A stretch of 64,000 nt of DNA from Phycisphaerales bacterium (GTDB lineage: Bacteria > Planctomycetota > Phycisphaerae > Phycisphaerales > UBA5793): positions 1 through 64,000 of the forward strand of contig JADZAS010000025.1 of NCBI GenBank assembly GCA_020852515.1, given 5' to 3'. Within the stretch, counting starts at the first letter, position 1. Each line of letters begins with the position of its first letter. Of the stretch, positions 19,323 to 29,250 are shown piece by piece. The notes below the pieces were generated by a model that ran no database searches, was not told where the DNA came from, and was given only the letters and a program-made list of their open reading frames with translations. Position numbers and translations under genes: made by a program.

Positions 19323-20966
19323 TCAGATCTTTGGGAGCGCGGTCGGTAATTTTGCAGGCGGCATCGGCTCGCGCCGGGCCTGGGCCGTCTGCTCGAACTG
19401 CTGGCGCAGGACATCGAGGTGGGTAATGAGCGAACCGAACTCGCCTTTTTCGATGCTGAGCACATCCATCGGCTCGACGCAGCGCACGGTGGCGTTGCGC
19501 GGGGCGCGGTTGAGCAGCGCCATCTCGCCGAAGTAGTGGCCCGCTTCGAGCGAGGCGAGAACCTGCGCTTGGCCGGATTGCTCATCGCGCCGCTCCACGT
19601 CCGCGCGGCCGCGGATGATGATGTAGACGCGATCGCCGAGGTCGCCCTGTTCGAACACGGCCTGGCCGGGTTCGAAGTGCTCGTGATTGATTCCGCTGCT
19701 GCGGCCGACGCGCAGCTGCACGATGTCGGGCGGCAGGAATAGATCGAGCAGCCAGGACAAGCCGACGCGCACCTTGCTCTGGATGCCCGGCAGTTTGCTC
19801 CAGTAGACGGTTCTCCAGAGGAACCACGCCGGAAAGCCGGCCAGACGCACGCCCATGACCTGAGCGACGCCGCGGCGATGACCCAGCGCGCACAGCGAGC
19901 CCAGACCTTTGAAGGCGAAAGGCTGCAGCGGGCGCTTGTTCTCGGCGGCCAGGATGTTGGCGGCCGCGACTCTTGCTTCGCGAATCGCGTGCTGGGCCGT
20001 GGGCGGCGCGTACGCCCGCTCGCCGACGGCGCCGGGCAGCGGTACCAGCGCGCAGTCGCCCAGCGCCCACACGCTGCCCTGCCCCTGCACGCGCAGGTGC
20101 TCATCGACGATGATGCGCCCGCGATCGCTGGGGAGATCGAGCGCTTCGCACAGCGGATTGGGATGGCTCGGCACCGTGGCCACGAGCGTCGCGCAGGCGA
20201 GCTTCGTGCCGTCTGCCAGCGCCGCGTGCTCGGATGTGGCGGCGGCAAGTCGCGCGCCGAGCATGATCTCGATGCCGCGCCGGCGCAGCAGGTTCTGCGC
20301 GTAGAGGGCCAGCTTCTCATCGACTTCGGGAAGGATGCGCTCGCGCGAATGGAGCAGGACGAAGCGGCACATCGCGCGCGTGATGGTGGGATAACTGCGC
20401 AGCGCGCGGCGGACGAAGTCGTGCAGTTCCGCCACGACTTCCACGCCGGAGAACCCGCCGCCGGCGACGACGAACGTCAGCAGCCTCGCTCGCCAGTCCG
20501 CACGCGTCTCCGCGTCGGCCTCTTCGAGGATGCGAATGACGTGATTGCGCAGGGCCAGTGCGTCGCCGTGCGTCTTGAAGGGCATGGCGTGTTCGGCGAG
20601 ACCGGGCAGCCCGCGGAAGTCCGTCACGTTGCCCAGCGCGATGACGAGGTGGTCATAAGGCAGAACAAGCGGGCGCGGCTGAAAGCCGGGCGAGCAGATG
20701 ACGTGCCGCTCGGCGAGGTCCACTCCCTCGACGTCGCGCATGTGCAGATGAGCGCGCGGGATGAGACGTCGGATGGGCGTGGTGGTGTCGGCAATGCCCA
20801 CGCTGCCTGAAATGACTTCCGGCAGCATCGGCTGGAAGACGAGGTAGTTCTCGCGATTGACGAGATGCACCTGCACGCGGTCGCCGCCCAGACGCAGCAG
20901 GTGCCTGGCGGTGTAAACACCGGCAAATCCGCCGCCGAGGATGACGATGCGCGTGGGATGAGCCAT
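19323..20966 (-). CDS. NDH-2-type NAD(P)H dehydrogenase fused to a cyclic nucleotide-binding domain
   Basis: A 547-aa fusion. Residues ~1-420 are a type II NADH:quinone oxidoreductase: FAD loop VILGGGFAGVYTARHL, NAD loop VVAGGGFSGVEVVAEL, a GDCALVP flavin site, PPTAQHAIREA, and an amphipathic C-terminal membrane-binding segment. Residues ~423-525 are a cNMP domain of the CRP/CAP fold with the phosphate-binding cassette GHYFGEMALLNRAPRNATVRC; the Arg and Thr that hold the cyclic phosphate are kept. No DNA-binding helix-turn-helix follows. It is in a - strand unit 34 bp after the tetrahaem cytochrome gene and probably feeds electrons from NADH to quinone under ligand control (inference). Confidence 0.9.
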   Translation of the reverse strand: MAHPTRIVILGGGFAGVYTARHLLRLGGDRVQVHLVNRENYLVFQPMLPEVISGSVGIADTTTPIRRLIPRAHLHMRDVEGVDLAERHVICSPGFQPRPLVLPYDHLVIALGNVTDFRGLPGLAEHAMPFKTHGDALALRNHVIRILEEADAETRADWRARLLTFVVAGGGFSGVEVVAELHDFVRRALRSYPTITRAMCRFVLLHSRERILPEVDEKLALYAQNLLRRRGIEIMLGARLAAATSEHAALADGTKLACATLVATVPSHPNPLCEALDLPSDRGRIIVDEHLRVQGQGSVWALGDCALVPLPGAVGERAYAPPTAQHAIREARVAAANILAAENKRPLQPFAFKGLGSLCALGHRRGVAQVMGVRLAGFPAWFLWRTVYWSKLPGIQSKVRVGLSWLLDLFLPPDIVQLRVGRSSGINHEHFEPGQAVFEQGDLGDRVYIIIRGRADVERRDEQSGQAQVLASLEAGHYFGEMALLNRAPRNATVRCVEPMDVLSIEKGEFGSLITHLDVLRQQFEQTAQARREPMPPAKLPTALPKI

Positions 20967-21000: not shown

Positions 21001-22212
21001 TCACTTGCCGATGAGATCGGCCATCTCCTTGATCGCCTTCGTCCAGTCGTCGCCTTCCTGCCCGGCGGTTGCCGCTTTGCTGGCGGTGCGGAAGGCGGCG
21101 GGAACTTCACCTCCGGCCGCCTTGAAGCACGCCTCACCCAGCGCGACCAGGCCGAAGGCCAGGTTCTTGCGCTGCACCTGGCTGCTGGCGTTGGCAGCGA
21201 GCGCGGCGAGATCGGCCGCGGCGGCCTTGCACGCCTCGGCGCTGTACGTCGCTGCGGCGAGCGCGGCGGGGGTGTTGGCGCCGAAGTGCTTGGCCGCGAT
21301 CTTCGCGCCGGCCTCGTAGATGGCGACCAGTTCGTCGGCCGCGGCGGTGTCCCAGCCCTTGCTCTTCCATGCGGCGGACTGAGCCTGCGCCGCCTCGAGC
21401 GACGCCGCCTGGCCGATCGCCCAGAGTTTGGCGTTGATCCACGGCACACTGGAGTCGTCCCAGTGAATCCTGCCGTGCTCATCGCCGTAGATGTAATGGT
21501 TGTACGAGTACAACTCGAACTGCAGCGCCGGGTGGCCCGCGTCGAGCAGGTCCTTATCGATCTGAAGATGGCACGAGACGCACATCTGGGCCCGAGCGGC
21601 GAGATCGGTCGTGTCGATCAGGCCGTACTCAGTCCGGAGCCCGGCGGCGCCGATCTTGCCGCGCTGCTCGTTGGTCCAGCCCTCCGTCGCGTGCGGCTCG
21701 AGGTACTTCTCGCCGGCGCCGTGGCAGGTTTCACAGCCGACGCCCTGCTCGACATCAAACGTCTCATCGCGTTGCGGCTCGGGCGGGTACGTGGTGTGAC
21801 AGGAAAGACAGCGCTCGCTGGCGGCGGGGTCGGCGAGGCTGAGTTTCTCGGCGATCTCCGTCGACGCATCGTCGAAAAGCGTCTCGCACGCGTCCTTGTG
21901 CGGATCGTGGTCGAACCAGATGTTGTACTCGTCGCCGATGAGTTTGCCCGAGTGCTCGGTGGGCTTCTCATCATCGTGGCAGCCGCTGCCCATGCACCCG
22001 GATACGCCGATGTACGTAAAGCCGGGGAGGATCGGCGGCGCTGCGGCATCGGCCCGGCACAGGGCCTCGGGCGCGCCTTCGCTCAAGATCGCACATGACA
22101 AAGCCGTCTCGCCGCGCGTGCCCAGCGTGGCCGCGATGAGCGCTGCGCTCATGCCGCAGATCACGCAGCCTGACAGTCCGAACAGATGAGATTCCCGGCG
22201 TCTTGACGTCAT
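21001..22212 (-). CDS. Exported tetrahaem cytochrome c (c554-like)
   Basis: A 403-aa protein with an N-terminal membrane segment/signal (residues ~10-30) and four haem-binding motifs: C-x4-CH (CMGSGCH, 73-79), CLSCH (135-139), CETCH (160-164) and CVSCH (211-215). The organisation and the GxGCETCHGAG segment resemble cytochrome c554/multihaem family proteins. The C-terminal ~150 residues are Ala-rich helical and haem-free. The ATG at 22212 is preferred because GAGG lies six nt upstream. It is divergent from the redox genes starting at 22429 and heads the unit with the NDH-2/cNMP gene, so it is a likely periplasmic electron carrier for that module. Confidence 0.88.
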   Translation of the reverse strand: MTSRRRESHLFGLSGCVICGMSAALIAATLGTRGETALSCAILSEGAPEALCRADAAAPPILPGFTYIGVSGCMGSGCHDDEKPTEHSGKLIGDEYNIWFDHDPHKDACETLFDDASTEIAEKLSLADPAASERCLSCHTTYPPEPQRDETFDVEQGVGCETCHGAGEKYLEPHATEGWTNEQRGKIGAAGLRTEYGLIDTTDLAARAQMCVSCHLQIDKDLLDAGHPALQFELYSYNHYIYGDEHGRIHWDDSSVPWINAKLWAIGQAASLEAAQAQSAAWKSKGWDTAAADELVAIYEAGAKIAAKHFGANTPAALAAATYSAEACKAAAADLAALAANASSQVQRKNLAFGLVALGEACFKAAGGEVPAAFRTASKAATAGQEGDDWTKAIKEMADLIGK

Positions 22213-22428: not shown

Positions 22429-24048
22429 ATGGCCAAGCGAATGCTCACGGCGAGACTCTCCGGAGATCGCAGCGCCATCCTCAGGGCGCCCGACCTGGTC
22501 GGCATCGACATTTTCGCCGATCTCGACCGCAAAGTGATCGACAAGTTTCCCGGCACGGTGGTGCGCCGCGAGTTTGCCGCCGGCGAGGTCATCTGCCGCG
22601 AGGGCGAAGGCGGCACCACGGCGTTCTATCTGCTCGAAGGTACGGTGAAGGTCTTCATCGCCCGGCGGCTGGGCGCGGCTGCATCCCGGCCGCGGCAAGG
22701 CTGGCGCGCCGCCATCGGCCGGTGGTTCGGCCAGAAGCCCCTCCATCCGCCCCGCCACAGCAGCGACGCCATCATCCCCATCGACGCCAACGTCGATCTG
22801 ACGTACGGCCAGCCGCGGACGACGCTGGGCGCCGGAGAAGTCTTCGGCGAGATGAGTTGCCTCAACCTCGCTCCGCGCTCGGCCACGGTGGTGGCCGAGA
22901 CTGACTGCGTCATGCTCGAAATCCTGCGCAACATGTACGAACAGTTGCAGCGCTCGCCCACCTTTCGCGAGAAGATGGATGCGAACTACCGCGCCCGGGC
23001 GCTGCAGGGGCACCTGCGCAACGTGCCGATCTTCCGCGACCTGCCCGACGACGTGCTCGAACGCCTGCAGAGCCGTGCTCAGTTGATCGCCGTCGATGCC
23101 GGCACGACCATCTTCCGCGAAAGCGACGAAGCCGACGGCGTCTATGTCATCCGCCTCGGGCAGGTGCGCGTGAGCCAGAAGTTTCCCGGCGGCGAGCGGA
23201 CGCTGGCGTACCTCACGCGCGGCGATTTTTTCGGCGAGACCGGACTGCTTCGCCGCACCACGCGCAACGCCACCTGCCAGGCGGTCGATCACCCCATCAT
23301 GGAGGGCGGGCGCAAGCGCAAGCCCGCGCGGGTGGAACTCGTGAAGATCGCGGCCGACGACTTCGCCGCCGTACTCGACGAGTTTCCGCGCATCAAGGGT
23401 CGGCTCGAGACCGTCACCCAGGAGCGCATCCGCCAGGGGCAGAGGGCGCGGGTGACGCTGACGGTCTCGGCGCCGTCGAGGCGGGTCGAAGAACTCGGCC
23501 TGCTGCAGGGGCAGAACCTCATGCTCATCGACCTCGAGCGCTGCACGCGCTGCGACCAGTGCGTCGATGCGTGCGTGTCGGCGCACGAGGACGGCATCAG
23601 CCGGCTGTTTCGCACCGGGCCGCGCTACGACAAGTACCTCGTGCCGTCGAGTTGCCGCATGTGTCTCGATCCCGTGTGCATGATCGGCTGCCCGGTTGGA
23701 TCGATCCGCCGCAGCGAAGACCTGAGCATCATCATCGAAGACTGGTGCGTGGGCTGCGGCATCTGCGCCAAGCAGTGTCCGTACGAGTCCATCGTGATGC
23801 ACGAACTCGAGGAGTACGGCGAGGACGTGAGCGAGCGGCTCATGCGCATCGCGGAATCCGGCGAAGTCATGGCCGTCACCGAGCGCGCGGCCGTGTGCGA
23901 CCAGTGCGAAGATCTGCCCTCGGGCCCGGCGTGCGTCTACTCGTGCCCGCACGACGCGGCCCATCGCGTGAACGCGGCAGAGTTCCTCAGCGCGGTCGGG
24001 CTGTTCGCCGCGGCCGCCGATCGAGAAGAGCAAGGCGGGGCCTCCTGA
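22429..24048 (+). CDS. Double cNMP-domain protein fused to a four-[4Fe-4S] ferredoxin module
   Basis: A 539-aa fusion. Two CRP-fold cyclic nucleotide-binding domains (residues ~30-185, with a ~45-residue insert, and ~200-325) each carry a phosphate cassette: GEVFGEMSCLNLAPRSATV and GDFFGETGLLRRTTRNATC. Residues 365-520 hold sixteen cysteines in four clusters: 372/375/378/382, 409/412/417/421, 440/443/446/450 and 490/493/502/506. This spacing, including CRMCLDPVCMIGCP, is that of the electron-transfer beta subunits of molybdopterin-type oxidoreductases (NrfC/HybA/DmsB type). No helix-turn-helix is present. The ATG at 22429 has AGGAG eight nt upstream. It is followed after 2 bp by a membrane b-type cytochrome, so it looks like a CISM-type beta/gamma pair without a catalytic subunit. 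Confidence 0.88.
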   Translation: MAKRMLTARLSGDRSAILRAPDLVGIDIFADLDRKVIDKFPGTVVRREFAAGEVICREGEGGTTAFYLLEGTVKVFIARRLGAAASRPRQGWRAAIGRWFGQKPLHPPRHSSDAIIPIDANVDLTYGQPRTTLGAGEVFGEMSCLNLAPRSATVVAETDCVMLEILRNMYEQLQRSPTFREKMDANYRARALQGHLRNVPIFRDLPDDVLERLQSRAQLIAVDAGTTIFRESDEADGVYVIRLGQVRVSQKFPGGERTLAYLTRGDFFGETGLLRRTTRNATCQAVDHPIMEGGRKRKPARVELVKIAADDFAAVLDEFPRIKGRLETVTQERIRQGQRARVTLTVSAPSRRVEELGLLQGQNLMLIDLERCTRCDQCVDACVSAHEDGISRLFRTGPRYDKYLVPSSCRMCLDPVCMIGCPVGSIRRSEDLSIIIEDWCVGCGICAKQCPYESIVMHELEEYGEDVSERLMRIAESGEVMAVTERAAVCDQCEDLPSGPACVYSCPHDAAHRVNAAEFLSAVGLFAAAADREEQGGAS

Positions 24049-24050
24049 GC

Positions 24051-24923
24051 ATGCTCGTGGATCGAAAGCACATCCCGTGGGCGGGGGCGACCATCGCAAT
24101 CGGCGCGGCGGCGAGCGCGTGGTATCTTTCCGATGCGCCGCGCCACCTCAACGGGCCGTCTGGATCGACGGTGGTGGGGCTGACGCTCGGTTCGGCCGCC
24201 CTGGCCATCATGCTCTTCTGCACGGCACTCTCGCTCAAGCGCAAGGTACCGCACTGGCGACTGGGCCGGGCGTCCACGTGGCTGCGCGGCCACATCTGGC
24301 TGGGGCTGCTCACGTGCCTGCTCGTGGGTCTGCATGCGGCGTTCCGTCTCGGCGGTCCGATGACGACGCTGCTGTGGATCGTACTGGCGCTGGTCACGCT
24401 CAGCGGGCTGCTGGGCCTGCTGATTCAGCAGTTCGTGCCGCGCCTGCTGCTGCACAGCGTGCCCGGCGAGACGATCGCGCAGCAGTTGAGGCGGCGGCTG
24501 AACGATCTGCCAATGCTGGCCGAGCGCGTGGTGGTGCAATACGCCGGCGCGATCGATACCGCCGCGCCGCCCTGGAACGATGGTGGGGACGTCGCCGGGC
24601 AGCCGCCGGCCGGGGGCGAGCCGATCCGCCGCTTTTACCTCGATCACTTGCGCGGGTACCTCGCCGGCGAGAATGGCGGCGATGTGCGCGACCCACACCG
24701 CGCCGAAAATCTTTTCAGCGCGCTGCACACGATGACGCCGGCTCACGCGCACGCCGGCATCGCCGAACTGAGTTCGATCTATCACCTGCACCGCGACCTG
24801 CTGCGCCAACGGCGTCTCATGCGCGTGCTGTTCGCCTGGCTGCTGTTTCACGTGCCGCTGAGTTGGGCGCTGCTGGTGCTCGTGGCGGCGCACGCGGTGA
24901 TGGCGCTGCGCTTCTGGACCTGA
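24051..24923 (+). CDS. Membrane b-type cytochrome (predicted di-haem, NarI/b561-like)
   Basis: A 290-aa protein with about five membrane helices (residues ~8-27, 40-62, 80-100, 106-128 and 258-285). His81/His95 and His267/His281 form two H-x13-H pairs within helices, the spacing used by bis-His haem b in quinol-oxidising membrane subunits. Between helices 4 and 5 lies a ~120-residue soluble region with further histidines. I do not recognise the family by name. The gene is 2 bp after the ferredoxin fusion and 10 bp before the tetrahaem cytochrome, so it is the probable membrane anchor linking the quinone pool to that ferredoxin or to the cytochromes. Confidence 0.7.
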   Translation: MLVDRKHIPWAGATIAIGAAASAWYLSDAPRHLNGPSGSTVVGLTLGSAALAIMLFCTALSLKRKVPHWRLGRASTWLRGHIWLGLLTCLLVGLHAAFRLGGPMTTLLWIVLALVTLSGLLGLLIQQFVPRLLLHSVPGETIAQQLRRRLNDLPMLAERVVVQYAGAIDTAAPPWNDGGDVAGQPPAGGEPIRRFYLDHLRGYLAGENGGDVRDPHRAENLFSALHTMTPAHAHAGIAELSSIYHLHRDLLRQRRLMRVLFAWLLFHVPLSWALLVLVAAHAVMALRFWT

Positions 24924-24933
24924 GGAACCGTCG

Positions 24934-25482
24934 ATGCCCGACAGCCGACCGATTGAAGAGCGATTCGACGTGACCTACGTCCGCCGCACGCACGGGCCGG
25001 ACCTGGCCAATCGCTGGCTCGCGTGGCTGGTCGTGCTCGGCGGCGGAGGCTTGCTTGCCATGCTGGTGGCGCGCGGCGACAACCGCGCGTATTCGTCGGG
25101 CAGCCTGAGCACGGTGCACGCGAGCTTCGGCAATGACTGCGCACAGTGTCACCAGCCTGCCGCGGATGGCGCTTCCAATTTCTTCCTGCCCGTTGCCGAT
25201 GACGCCTGCCTGCGCTGCCACGCCGCGGTTGAGCACGCGCCAAACCAGACGCAATTCAGCGCGGCGGATGCTGTCGTCATCCCCGGCCACCGCGGGCCGG
25301 TGCGGATGGCGGCGGGTTGTGCCGTGTGCCACGTTGAGCACCGCGGCCGCGATGCCGACCTCAACCTCATTCCCGATCGCCTGTGCGTGCAGTGCCATGC
25401 GAACCTGAGCCGCGACGGCCTGCACCCGGCCGAGGCGCCGCCGGCAATACCGGATGAATCAGTCGGGGAGGACCGGCCATGA
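24934..25482 (+). CDS. Membrane-anchored tetrahaem cytochrome c
   Basis: A 182-aa protein with one N-terminal membrane helix (residues ~28-46) and four CxxCH motifs at 69-73, 92-96, 129-133 and 151-155. Extra histidines (62, 119, 136) could serve as distal ligands. The compact spacing resembles cytochrome c3/NapC-NrfH-like electron-transfer proteins, though it is not a clear match to either. Its stop overlaps the start of the hexahaem gene (ATGA at 25479-25482), implying a stoichiometric partner. Confidence 0.85.
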   Translation: MPDSRPIEERFDVTYVRRTHGPDLANRWLAWLVVLGGGGLLAMLVARGDNRAYSSGSLSTVHASFGNDCAQCHQPAADGASNFFLPVADDACLRCHAAVEHAPNQTQFSAADAVVIPGHRGPVRMAAGCAVCHVEHRGRDADLNLIPDRLCVQCHANLSRDGLHPAEAPPAIPDESVGEDRP

Positions 25483-26483
25483 CGGCCCGCGGCGTTGCAC
25501 TCATCCTCGCCGGCGGCTGCATGGCGCTGCTCGGCGCGTCGCTGCTCATCGCCCAGCCGCGCACCAGCCCGTCCGTTGAGCCGACGATCGTGAACATGAT
25601 CTTCGACTTCGGGCAGAGCCATCCGGACTGGGCGGTGCTCCGCGGCGACCGCGAGGATGCCGCAACTGTGAAGTTCAACCACGCTCGGCACATGGACGCC
25701 GGGAACGCGAACGTGCAGGAGGCGCTGCAGGCGCATGGCCAGCAGGCCCGGGCGATCGAGCGGCTGGCCGACGGCCAGCTGTCGCTCACGTGCGCTTCGT
25801 GTCACCAACCGGATGCGCAGGGTCGGTACATGAAGCCGATTTCGTTCGAGCAGCACTGCGTCGCCTGCCACGAGCAGAACCTCATCCAGATCGGCCCGAG
25901 GCGAGCGGTGCACGGCAACGTGTCGGAACTCATCGAGCAAGTGAATCGAGAACTTCTGGCCAGCGTGCTCAAAGAGAATCTCCTGCATCCGCCGGACAAA
26001 GCCGTTGAGGAATCGGAGATCGACATCGACGGCGAGATCTCGCGCGATCGGCACAAGGAGTTCGACCGGGTTCTCAACGGGTGCGGCAAGTGCCATTACA
26101 GCGCGGCCATTGAGCGGCCCAAGCGGCCGCGCGGCGCGCCGTTTGAACTGGCGTCACCGGAGATTCCCCAGCGCTGGCTGGAGCGTTCGGTCTTCTCGCA
26201 CGAAGCGCACCGCGCGCTGACGTGCCTGGAGTGTCACGCGCAGGCGACCACGGGGACGGAGACGTCCGACATCATGCTGCCGTCGATCGACTCGTGCCGC
26301 GCGTGCCACGCGCCCGAGGTGGGCGTGCGCTCGGATTGTGTGCTGTGCCATGTGTACCACCCGCCGCTGGAGCCGGCCCCGACGGGGACGCTGACGATCG
26401 AGGAGTACGCCGCAGCGGGCGGAGACGCTCCGGAGGCGACTACCGGGGCCGCAACTTCCTCAGCCGATCAATCGCGGCGTTGA
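25479..26483 (+). CDS. Exported hexahaem cytochrome c
   Basis: A 334-aa protein with an N-terminal signal/anchor (residues ~5-25) and six CxxCH motifs: 105-109, 127-131, 202-206, 249-253, 273-277 and 287-291. A F-N-H-x-x-H element (residues ~66-71) and FSHEAHRALTC (~239-249) supply likely distal ligands, as in cytochrome c7/c3-type haem pairs. It is the last gene of the + strand redox unit. Its 3' end overlaps the convergent aminotransferase gene by 44 bp. The electron acceptor is not encoded here. Confidence 0.85.
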   Translation: MTARGVALILAGGCMALLGASLLIAQPRTSPSVEPTIVNMIFDFGQSHPDWAVLRGDREDAATVKFNHARHMDAGNANVQEALQAHGQQARAIERLADGQLSLTCASCHQPDAQGRYMKPISFEQHCVACHEQNLIQIGPRRAVHGNVSELIEQVNRELLASVLKENLLHPPDKAVEESEIDIDGEISRDRHKEFDRVLNGCGKCHYSAAIERPKRPRGAPFELASPEIPQRWLERSVFSHEAHRALTCLECHAQATTGTETSDIMLPSIDSCRACHAPEVGVRSDCVLCHVYHPPLEPAPTGTLTIEEYAAAGGDAPEATTGAATSSADQSRR

Positions 26484-27651: not shown

Positions 27652-29250
27652 ATGATAGCGAAGCGGGCGCCAAACTCGCAGCGGACGGTTGGTGAGAGCG
27701 CTGCGGCTCGCCGCAAGCGGCTTGGCGCGTTCTACACGCCGCCTGATCTCGTGGGGGCCATTCTCGACGAGGCGATGGCGCCGATTCTTGAGCCCATGGT
27801 CGATGCGGCGTCGTGCCGGGCGCGCCTGGCGAGGCTGCGCATCATCGACCCGGCGTGCGGCAGCGGCCATTTTCTCCTCGGCGCCTGGCGGCGGCTGGCG
27901 GACCTCATTGAGCGCATCGCGGCCGTGGAGTCGCGTCGCGACTGTCTGCAACTTGCGGCGGCGAGCCTGCACGGCATTGACATCGACCCGCAGGCGCGTG
28001 CCGCGGGCCGGCCGCTGCTTGAAATGGAGTGTGAGCGGTGGGGGATGGAGCCGGGCGATTTTGCTCACTGGTGCCGACTCGGCGATGCGCTGCTGGGGGA
28101 GCTGATCGAGCCGGGCACATTTGGTCTGGTCGTGGGCAATCCGCCGTTCGTGGATTCCGAGTCGATGTGTGCCGGGAATCTGTCGCGCCGGCGTGGGCTG
28201 GCGGGCCGATACGCCACGGCGCGCGGCAACTGGGATCTGGCATCGCTCTTCGTCGAACTGGCGCTGCGGCTCGCGCGGCCGGGTGGGCGCGTCGGCCTCG
28301 TCCTGCCACGGAGGCTGCTGGCCTCCGACCATGCCCGGCACGTGCAGGCGCTCCTTCTAAAACAGACGATCGAATCAATTCGCGTCAACCGGCTTGATGC
28401 CTTCGAGGAAGCCGCGGTCGAGACGGTGAGCGTGGTCATGCGTCGCGGTCGCGGCGGGGACGGTCAACTGATTCGAATCATCGACGGACCAAGTTGCTGG
28501 TCCTTTGCTCAGCGTGATCTGGCGCCCCTGCCGCCGGGGCACTGGTCGGCAGCGCTGGCCGGCCGCGGGAGCGCCCTGTCGACTGCGATCAATCCGGCGG
28601 CGCTGCGCGAGCGGCCGCGCCTCCGGGAGTGCGCCTTCGTGGGCGATGGGGCGACCACGGCCGAGGCATACCGCCTGCGCGAGGCGATCGTCGAGCGGCG
28701 CGATGCGACAGACGCCTTTGTGCAACTGATCAATACCGGCACGATCGATCCGTACCAGTCGCACTGGGGCACGCGGCCGACGCGCTATCTCAAGACGGCG
28801 TGGATCGAGCCGGTCGTGCCGCTCGGTTGGCTCGAGAGCCATATGCCGCGCCGCGCTGCGCAGGCGTGCTCCGCCAAGGTGCTGGTGGCCGGGCTGGCGG
28901 GCCGCATCGAAGCCGTGGTCGATGACGGTTCAGCGCTGTGCGGCAAGTCGGCGGTGCAGGTGATCCCGCTTGAGCCGGTGCTGTGTCACGCGCTGTGCGC
29001 CTGGCTCAATTCAACGCCCGTCAATGATTTCTACCGCGTGCTGTTCGGCTCGCGCGGCTTCGGTGTCAGGTCCATGCACATCGGCCCGCGGCAGCTCGAG
29101 CAGTTGCCTACGTGGCGGCTCAATGATCGTGCAATCGCGGAGGAACTTGCTGAATTGAGCAGGGCGCTGCATTCCCGAGAAGTTCATTCCAACCAGAGCC
29201 GACGCCTGCACGCGCGCATCGACGCAATCGTCTCAGAATTGCTCGCGTGA
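27652..29250 (+). CDS. Adenine-N6 DNA methyltransferase (Eco57I/TaqI-like), solitary
   Basis: A 532-aa SAM-dependent methyltransferase. Motif I is DPACGSGHFLLGAW (residues ~67-80) and the catalytic motif IV is GNPPF (~162-166), the N/D-PP-Y/F signature of N6-adenine enzymes; LGAFYTPPDLV near the N terminus is the motif X typical of gamma-class enzymes. The C-terminal ~200 residues resemble a TaqI-like target-recognition region (FVQLINTGTIDPYQSHWG). No PD-(D/E)xK endonuclease segment or neighbouring restriction gene is seen, so it is an orphan methyltransferase or the remnant of a type II/IIG system. Divergent from the aminotransferase by 57 bp. Confidence 0.88.
   Translation: MIAKRAPNSQRTVGESAAARRKRLGAFYTPPDLVGAILDEAMAPILEPMVDAASCRARLARLRIIDPACGSGHFLLGAWRRLADLIERIAAVESRRDCLQLAAASLHGIDIDPQARAAGRPLLEMECERWGMEPGDFAHWCRLGDALLGELIEPGTFGLVVGNPPFVDSESMCAGNLSRRRGLAGRYATARGNWDLASLFVELALRLARPGGRVGLVLPRRLLASDHARHVQALLLKQTIESIRVNRLDAFEEAAVETVSVVMRRGRGGDGQLIRIIDGPSCWSFAQRDLAPLPPGHWSAALAGRGSALSTAINPAALRERPRLRECAFVGDGATTAEAYRLREAIVERRDATDAFVQLINTGTIDPYQSHWGTRPTRYLKTAWIEPVVPLGWLESHMPRRAAQACSAKVLVAGLAGRIEAVVDDGSALCGKSAVQVIPLEPVLCHALCAWLNSTPVNDFYRVLFGSRGFGVRSMHIGPRQLEQLPTWRLNDRAIAEELAELSRALHSREVHSNQSRRLHARIDAIVSELLA

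Follow-up and report, generated by a model that had tools for sequence, protein, structure and literature searches.

Ferric reductases and NADPH oxidases (the FRD family, PF01794) carry two haems on H-x13-H helices and move NAD(P)H electrons outward across the membrane, and members of the NOX family can have fused regulatory domains. Four [4Fe-4S] clusters are found in ferredoxins of the HydN/HycB/AegA type and in the beta subunits of CISM enzymes (DmsB, TtrB and NrfC). In complex I, NADH-dependent FeFe hydrogenases and formate dehydrogenases, NuoE-NuoF and a NuoG-type N-terminus feed an Fe-S chain. In Methanosarcina acetivorans, the membrane complex Rnf joins a cytoplasmic reductant to an electron-exporting multihaem cytochrome, MmcA (PMC11024163, PMC6703419). 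CNB (cNMP-binding) folds with a Glu/Arg cassette occur in the tandem regulatory domains of PKA and PKG, and in CRP. To our knowledge, Rnf-MmcA has no cyclic-nucleotide domains.

Here we compare with these systems a locus of a Phycisphaerales bacterium (assembly GCA_020852515.1; 4.72 Mb in 39 contigs), which lies on contig 25 (JADZAS010000025.1) in the window, that is, the whole stretch of 64,000 nucleotides analysed. Its membrane protein, P0002, has the two H-x13-H helices of the FRD family; unlike FRD proteins, it has no fused flavin domain and has a large TM4-TM5 loop, and electrons would enter it through a separate four-cluster ferredoxin, P0001, and leave through c haems. P0001 has its cluster motifs in the same order as the ferredoxins and beta subunits above, but is fused to tandem CNB domains and has no Mo or hydrogenase partner nearby. 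Relatives of the locus share NuoE-NuoF and the NuoG-type N-terminus with the NuoEFG-like systems, whereas the chain would end in a CNB-ferredoxin, a b cytochrome and multihaem c-type cytochromes, and not in quinone or a catalytic subunit. As in Rnf-MmcA, a membrane complex would connect a cytoplasmic reductant with a multihaem cytochrome, although Rnf subunits are unrelated to P0002. In P0001 the tandem CNB fold is joined to an electron-transfer protein rather than to a kinase or DNA-binding domain. We propose, with a probability of roughly 0.6, that the locus encodes a transmembrane conduit under cyclic-nucleotide control, by which NAD(P)H-linked electrons reach multihaem c-type cytochromes of the periplasm.

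Results

Four plus-strand genes, P0001 to P0004, lie head to tail (Table 1), separated by gaps of 2 bp (P0001/P0002) and 10 bp (P0002/P0003) and by an overlap of 4 bp (P0003/P0004). P0001 and P0002 both start with ATG, in the case of P0001 with an AGGAG-like stretch upstream. A promoter scan found no sigma-70 consensus in the intergenic region that separates them from the divergent unit, and tandem-repeat and promoter scans of the locus were uninformative. The longest reading frame of P0005 (19323-21482, minus strand) starts far upstream, inside P0006; the ATG given in Table 1 is the likely start, and automatic annotation could over-extend the gene. An open reading frame at 27652-29250 (plus strand) contains a VVGNPPF motif and reads like an orphan N6-adenine DNA methyltransferase.

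Table 1. Features of the locus, in positions of the window.
Feature	Coordinates	Strand	Evidence
P0005: NDH-2-type NAD(P)H oxidoreductase with C-terminal CNB domain	19323-20966	-	Pfam Pyr_redox_2, NDH2_C, cNMP_binding
P0006: cytochrome c554-like multihaem protein, divergent transcription	21001-22212	-	Pfam Cytochrome_C554, E 2.5e-11
Intergenic region between two divergent transcription units, 216 bp	22213-22428		Gene coordinates
P0001: fusion of tandem CNB (cNMP-binding) domains and four-[4Fe-4S] ferredoxin	22429-24048	+	Pfam, 42-sequence alignment, model and fold search
CNB domain 1 phosphate-binding cassette GEVFGEMSCLNLAPRSATVVAETDC	22834-22908	+	G140, E141, R150, A152 invariant in alignment A2
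CNB domain 2 cassette FGETGLLRRTTRNAT; intact in P0001, degenerate in one clade (L086-L090, L093)	23218-23298	+	Alignment rows
P0001 four [4Fe-4S] cluster motifs, 16 Cys, residues 372-506	23542-23946	+	16 Cys invariant in 42/42 sequences
P0002: membrane protein with predicted ligands for two b haems; remote relative of ferric-reductase/NOX-type TM domains	24051-24923	+	Invariant His, model, profile comparison, topology
P0003: tetra-haem c-type cytochrome with N-terminal hydrophobic anchor	24934-25482	+	Four CxxCH, Pfam, cluster c1
P0004: hexa-haem c-type cytochrome	25479-26483	+	Six CxxCH, Pfam, cluster c1

P0001 matches the Pfam family cNMP_binding (E 1.6e-34) and several 4Fe-4S families. An earlier interpretation of this DNA from its letters alone (the sequence-only reading) had reported a four-cluster pattern here. 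Indeed, its 16 cysteines (C372, 375, 378, 382; 409, 412, 417, 421; 440, 443, 446, 450; 490, 493, 502, 506) are invariant across alignment members taken from all over Planctomycetota, and the pattern is thus not due to chance. Judged by its best curated models, AegA, HydN and DmsB, all of which score below family cut-offs, the ferredoxin half belongs with four-cluster beta subunits, as that reading had held. The two cNMP domains that it had described are present too, not as separate proteins but fused to the ferredoxin. E141 and R150 of site 1, which we take to be the expected ribose and phosphate ligands, respectively, are kept nearly everywhere in the 42-sequence alignment, and P0001 itself has an intact Glu/Arg cassette. 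In a fold search, the AlphaFold2 model of P0001 (mean pLDDT 76.4) aligned with the regulatory regions of PKA and PKG at their tandem CNB domains, with Foldseek E values down to 3e-18, and trypanosome PKA-R homologues are among the structural matches; the domains are regulatory-type. In one homologue (L116) an FHA domain, identified by a Pfam match, is fused N-terminally to the CNB-ferredoxin. This domain and the NuoG-type regions described below are the N-terminal extensions backed by Pfam matches; other long extensions (for example, in L105) were left out as apparent over-extensions of the reading frame.

The next gene, as noticed earlier, encodes two helices with an H-x13-H pair each (H81/H95 and H267/H281). 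All four histidines of P0002 are invariant in 22 sequences with identity down to 21%, and the pairs recur in more distant neighbours found by profile. The P0002 model is helical (mean pLDDT 86.7). The TM2-3 loop carries on average 6.0 K/R against 0.1 D/E and should thus be cytoplasmic, as should, by alternation, the large TM4-5 loop. TM3 and TM5 would then run in the same direction, so that H81/H267 are predicted to hold an inner and H95/H281 an outer haem.

The sequence-only reading had taken P0002 for a CISM gamma subunit. Profile-profile comparison (hhalign) points elsewhere: P0002 scored 85% with ferric-reductase-type proteins, over only 81 columns, against 9.8% with cytochrome b561, 4% with DUF4405 and 0.3% with NarI, while none of ten locally shuffled controls scored above 5.5%. 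By these scores, P0002 is more similar to the electron bridge of NOX and ferric reductases than to a CISM gamma subunit. P0002 has no Pfam match above cut-off, PF01794 included (0.005; 17.3 of 28 bits), and 10 of the 22 family members match PF01794 weakly. Fold searches with the model (Foldseek, VIA-align 2) returned generic helical bundles only and no solved relative, and a profile search of the PDB that started from the P0002 alignment brought up nothing relevant.

We surveyed 392 sampled genomes of Planctomycetota, that phylum alone, for homologues. Of these, 55 have a P0001-type protein and 79 a P0002-type protein, and 50 have both (Fisher P 1e-36); all 22 genomes with a strong P0002 match also had P0001. 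We then compared 40 neighbourhoods of up to 20 kb each, in nearly all of which a P0002 relative lies near P0001, usually adjacent to it. The usual next gene, and third partner, of the relatives encodes a deca-haem cytochrome (cluster c1). In the host genus this partner is split into 4 + 6 haems, with P0003 as its first part and P0004 as the rest. The N-terminal hydrophobic segment of P0003 would anchor the protein in the membrane, which makes the earlier description of the cytochromes as soluble doubtful for P0003. Relatives of P0006 are present in 26 of the neighbourhoods.

In a second architecture, found in L083-L085, L091, L092, L094 and L095, cytochromes of 15 to 18 haems instead of the deca-haem one flank the CNB-ferredoxin and b cytochrome. 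Near the core genes of some loci, a protein without Pfam matches that has the look of an outer-membrane beta-barrel (signal peptide, aromatic last residue) adjoins a 5-haem or 10-haem cytochrome (L086-L090 and L095, clusters c11/c12; L105 and L110, clusters c9/c13). These pairs are possible new porin-cytochrome conduits; porin-multihaem clusters of comparable layout have been reported in freshwater Verrucomicrobia (PMC5615132).

Relatives also differ in what lies at the electron input end. In eight loci (L078, L080, L101, L103, L104, L108, L114 and L115) a NuoE-NuoF fusion is encoded directly upstream on the same strand. In the same eight, as well as in L077 and on the short contig L109, the P0001 homologue has an N-terminal NuoG-like region, with Fer2_4 and 4Fe-4S Pfam matches ([2Fe-2S]/[4Fe-4S]) in the four homologues scanned. 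The fusion argues that NADH-linked electrons would feed the CNB-ferredoxin in those lineages. Four other loci (L086-L088 and L093) have a reductase with FAD/NAD and Fer2 ([2Fe-2S]) domains directly upstream, and the types of input module occupy distinct parts of the P0001 tree. The sequence-only reading had the catalytic subunit apparently replaced by the cNMP domains, together with soluble cytochromes; given the regulatory type of these domains and the NAD(P)H-oxidising flavoenzyme modules with which relatives fill the input end, we do not retain that idea. In many homologous loci the stretch examined contains no NAD(P)H module, so their donors may differ or be encoded elsewhere.

Our reading is at its weakest where it concerns the NAD(P)H partner in the host organism. 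A NuoE/NuoF diaphorase is absent from the window, the single NuoF of the genome sits on another contig, and P0001 itself has no NuoG-type domain. P0005, whose type of divergent NDH-2/CNB gene is kept in place beside the operon in 7/7 loci of the host genus, is a candidate electron-entry protein. The case for it is weaker than that for the NuoG fusion, because NDH-2 enzymes usually reduce quinone; P0005 carries no Fe-S input domain.

We sought the class III cyclase domain (PF00211) in all 55 genomes with P0001. In 15 of them, representing 6 of 25 families, a cyclase is encoded within 10 kb of a P0001- or P0002-type gene, where uniform placement would give about 1.4 genomes and about 0.8 families by chance (Poisson P ~2e-11 and ~2e-4, respectively); shared ancestry inflates the first of these figures, and the family-level one is fairer. 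The first ten genomes had been picked partly for cyclases already seen, and the other 44 were searched unselected; three families with a linked cyclase (f46, f54 and f99) come from these 44. The host genome encodes four class III cyclases, none on the contig of P0001, and no linked cyclase was found in the host genus. Proteins with FHA and class III cyclase domains lie close to core genes in L089 (5497-7236), L085 (15514-17448) and relatives (cluster c20; the Pfam matches of both domains are shown for the L089 member). Together with the FHA fusion in L116, the FHA-cyclase suggests a possible phosphorylation input.

As the sequence-only reading had stated, the pair has no catalytic alpha subunit beside it: none of Mo type is encoded near it, and three Mo-alpha queries gave no match at E 1e-4 in about 40 neighbourhoods. 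That reading had also called for a search for a remote alpha subunit. The host genome does encode several Mo-family proteins (two NasC-like, one DMSO-type-II-like, one PhsA-like, and NuoG), some of which have an Fe-S neighbour of their own. A hidden Mo alpha subunit serving P0001/P0002, sought in the host's own genome and in all neighbourhoods, was discarded, none being linked to the pair.

Discussion

In the conduit that we propose, electrons from NAD(P)H would pass to a flavoprotein, which would be NuoEF with the NuoG domain or the FAD/[2Fe-2S] reductase in relatives, and possibly P0005 in the host, and from there to the four clusters of P0001. In a putative complex of P0001 with P0002, they would cross the membrane from the inner to the outer haem b, reach the ten c haems of P0003 and P0004, and be passed on to P0006 and other periplasmic or outer-membrane cytochromes. 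A class III cyclase would make cAMP or cGMP, which would bind to the tandem CNB domains and so permit or block transfer. We suggest, more tentatively and at somewhat below even odds, that the conductor is ligand-gated, cAMP or cGMP on the ferredoxin subunit directly opening or closing the flow that connects NAD(P)H with multihaem cytochromes, which may be extracellular. Equally tentative is our view of it as the redox counterpart of a cyclic-nucleotide-gated channel, switched in several lineages by the clustered cyclase.

The same wire may run inward, with an external donor reducing the periplasmic cytochromes and electrons passing through haem b and the Fe-S clusters to NAD(P)+, driven by membrane potential, under cyclic-nucleotide control of uptake. 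The anatomy fits either direction, and MmcA of Methanosarcina is reported to act as a conduit in intracellular as well as extracellular electron transport (PMC11024163). However, NAD(P)H is a strong reductant from which outward flow to most c haems is downhill, and we identified in the window no system for an inorganic electron donor, so we regard inward flow as unlikely. It is also rather improbable, to a similar degree, that the wire is real but its CNB domains are structural or bind another ligand. Some CNB folds bind no cyclic nucleotides, the trypanosome PKA-R homologues appear among the structural matches, and site 2 has degenerated in one clade of the 42-sequence alignment; yet the near-invariance of the site 1 Glu and Arg and a linkage to class III cyclases far above expectation both speak for gating.

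Much less probable than either is that P0001 and P0002 are a CISM-like beta/gamma pair which exchanges electrons with quinone at P0002 and works for a catalytic subunit, of Mo type or another, whose gene lies elsewhere in the genome. The beta type of the ferredoxin half and the several Mo-family proteins of the host would suit such a pair. The neighbourhoods without an alpha subunit, the NuoG fusion of relatives, which points to NADH, and the distance of P0002 from the NarI and cytochrome b561 profiles all argue against it, as do the Fe-S neighbours that at least some of the host Mo proteins already have.

The tuning of respiratory electron transfer is known mostly at the level of transcription, substrate supply and membrane potential. 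Direct gating of the proposed conduit by a second messenger, if real, would add a further layer of control to respiration and offer bioelectrochemistry a natural switch of interest. A widespread multihaem-cytochrome cluster of planctomycetes that lacks annotation would also gain a function, and a planctomycete link between NAD(P)H and periplasmic or extracellular acceptors would become testable. In the open-access literature we found no description of a system that combines a cNMP-domain ferredoxin with multihaem cytochromes, which is not proof of novelty; this is apparently a conserved planctomycete electron-transfer system, undescribed so far.

One contig titled Vicinamibacteraceae (L015; WYBR01000109.1) has the cluster too, 85% identical and in the planctomycete gene order, and its genome looks misnamed.
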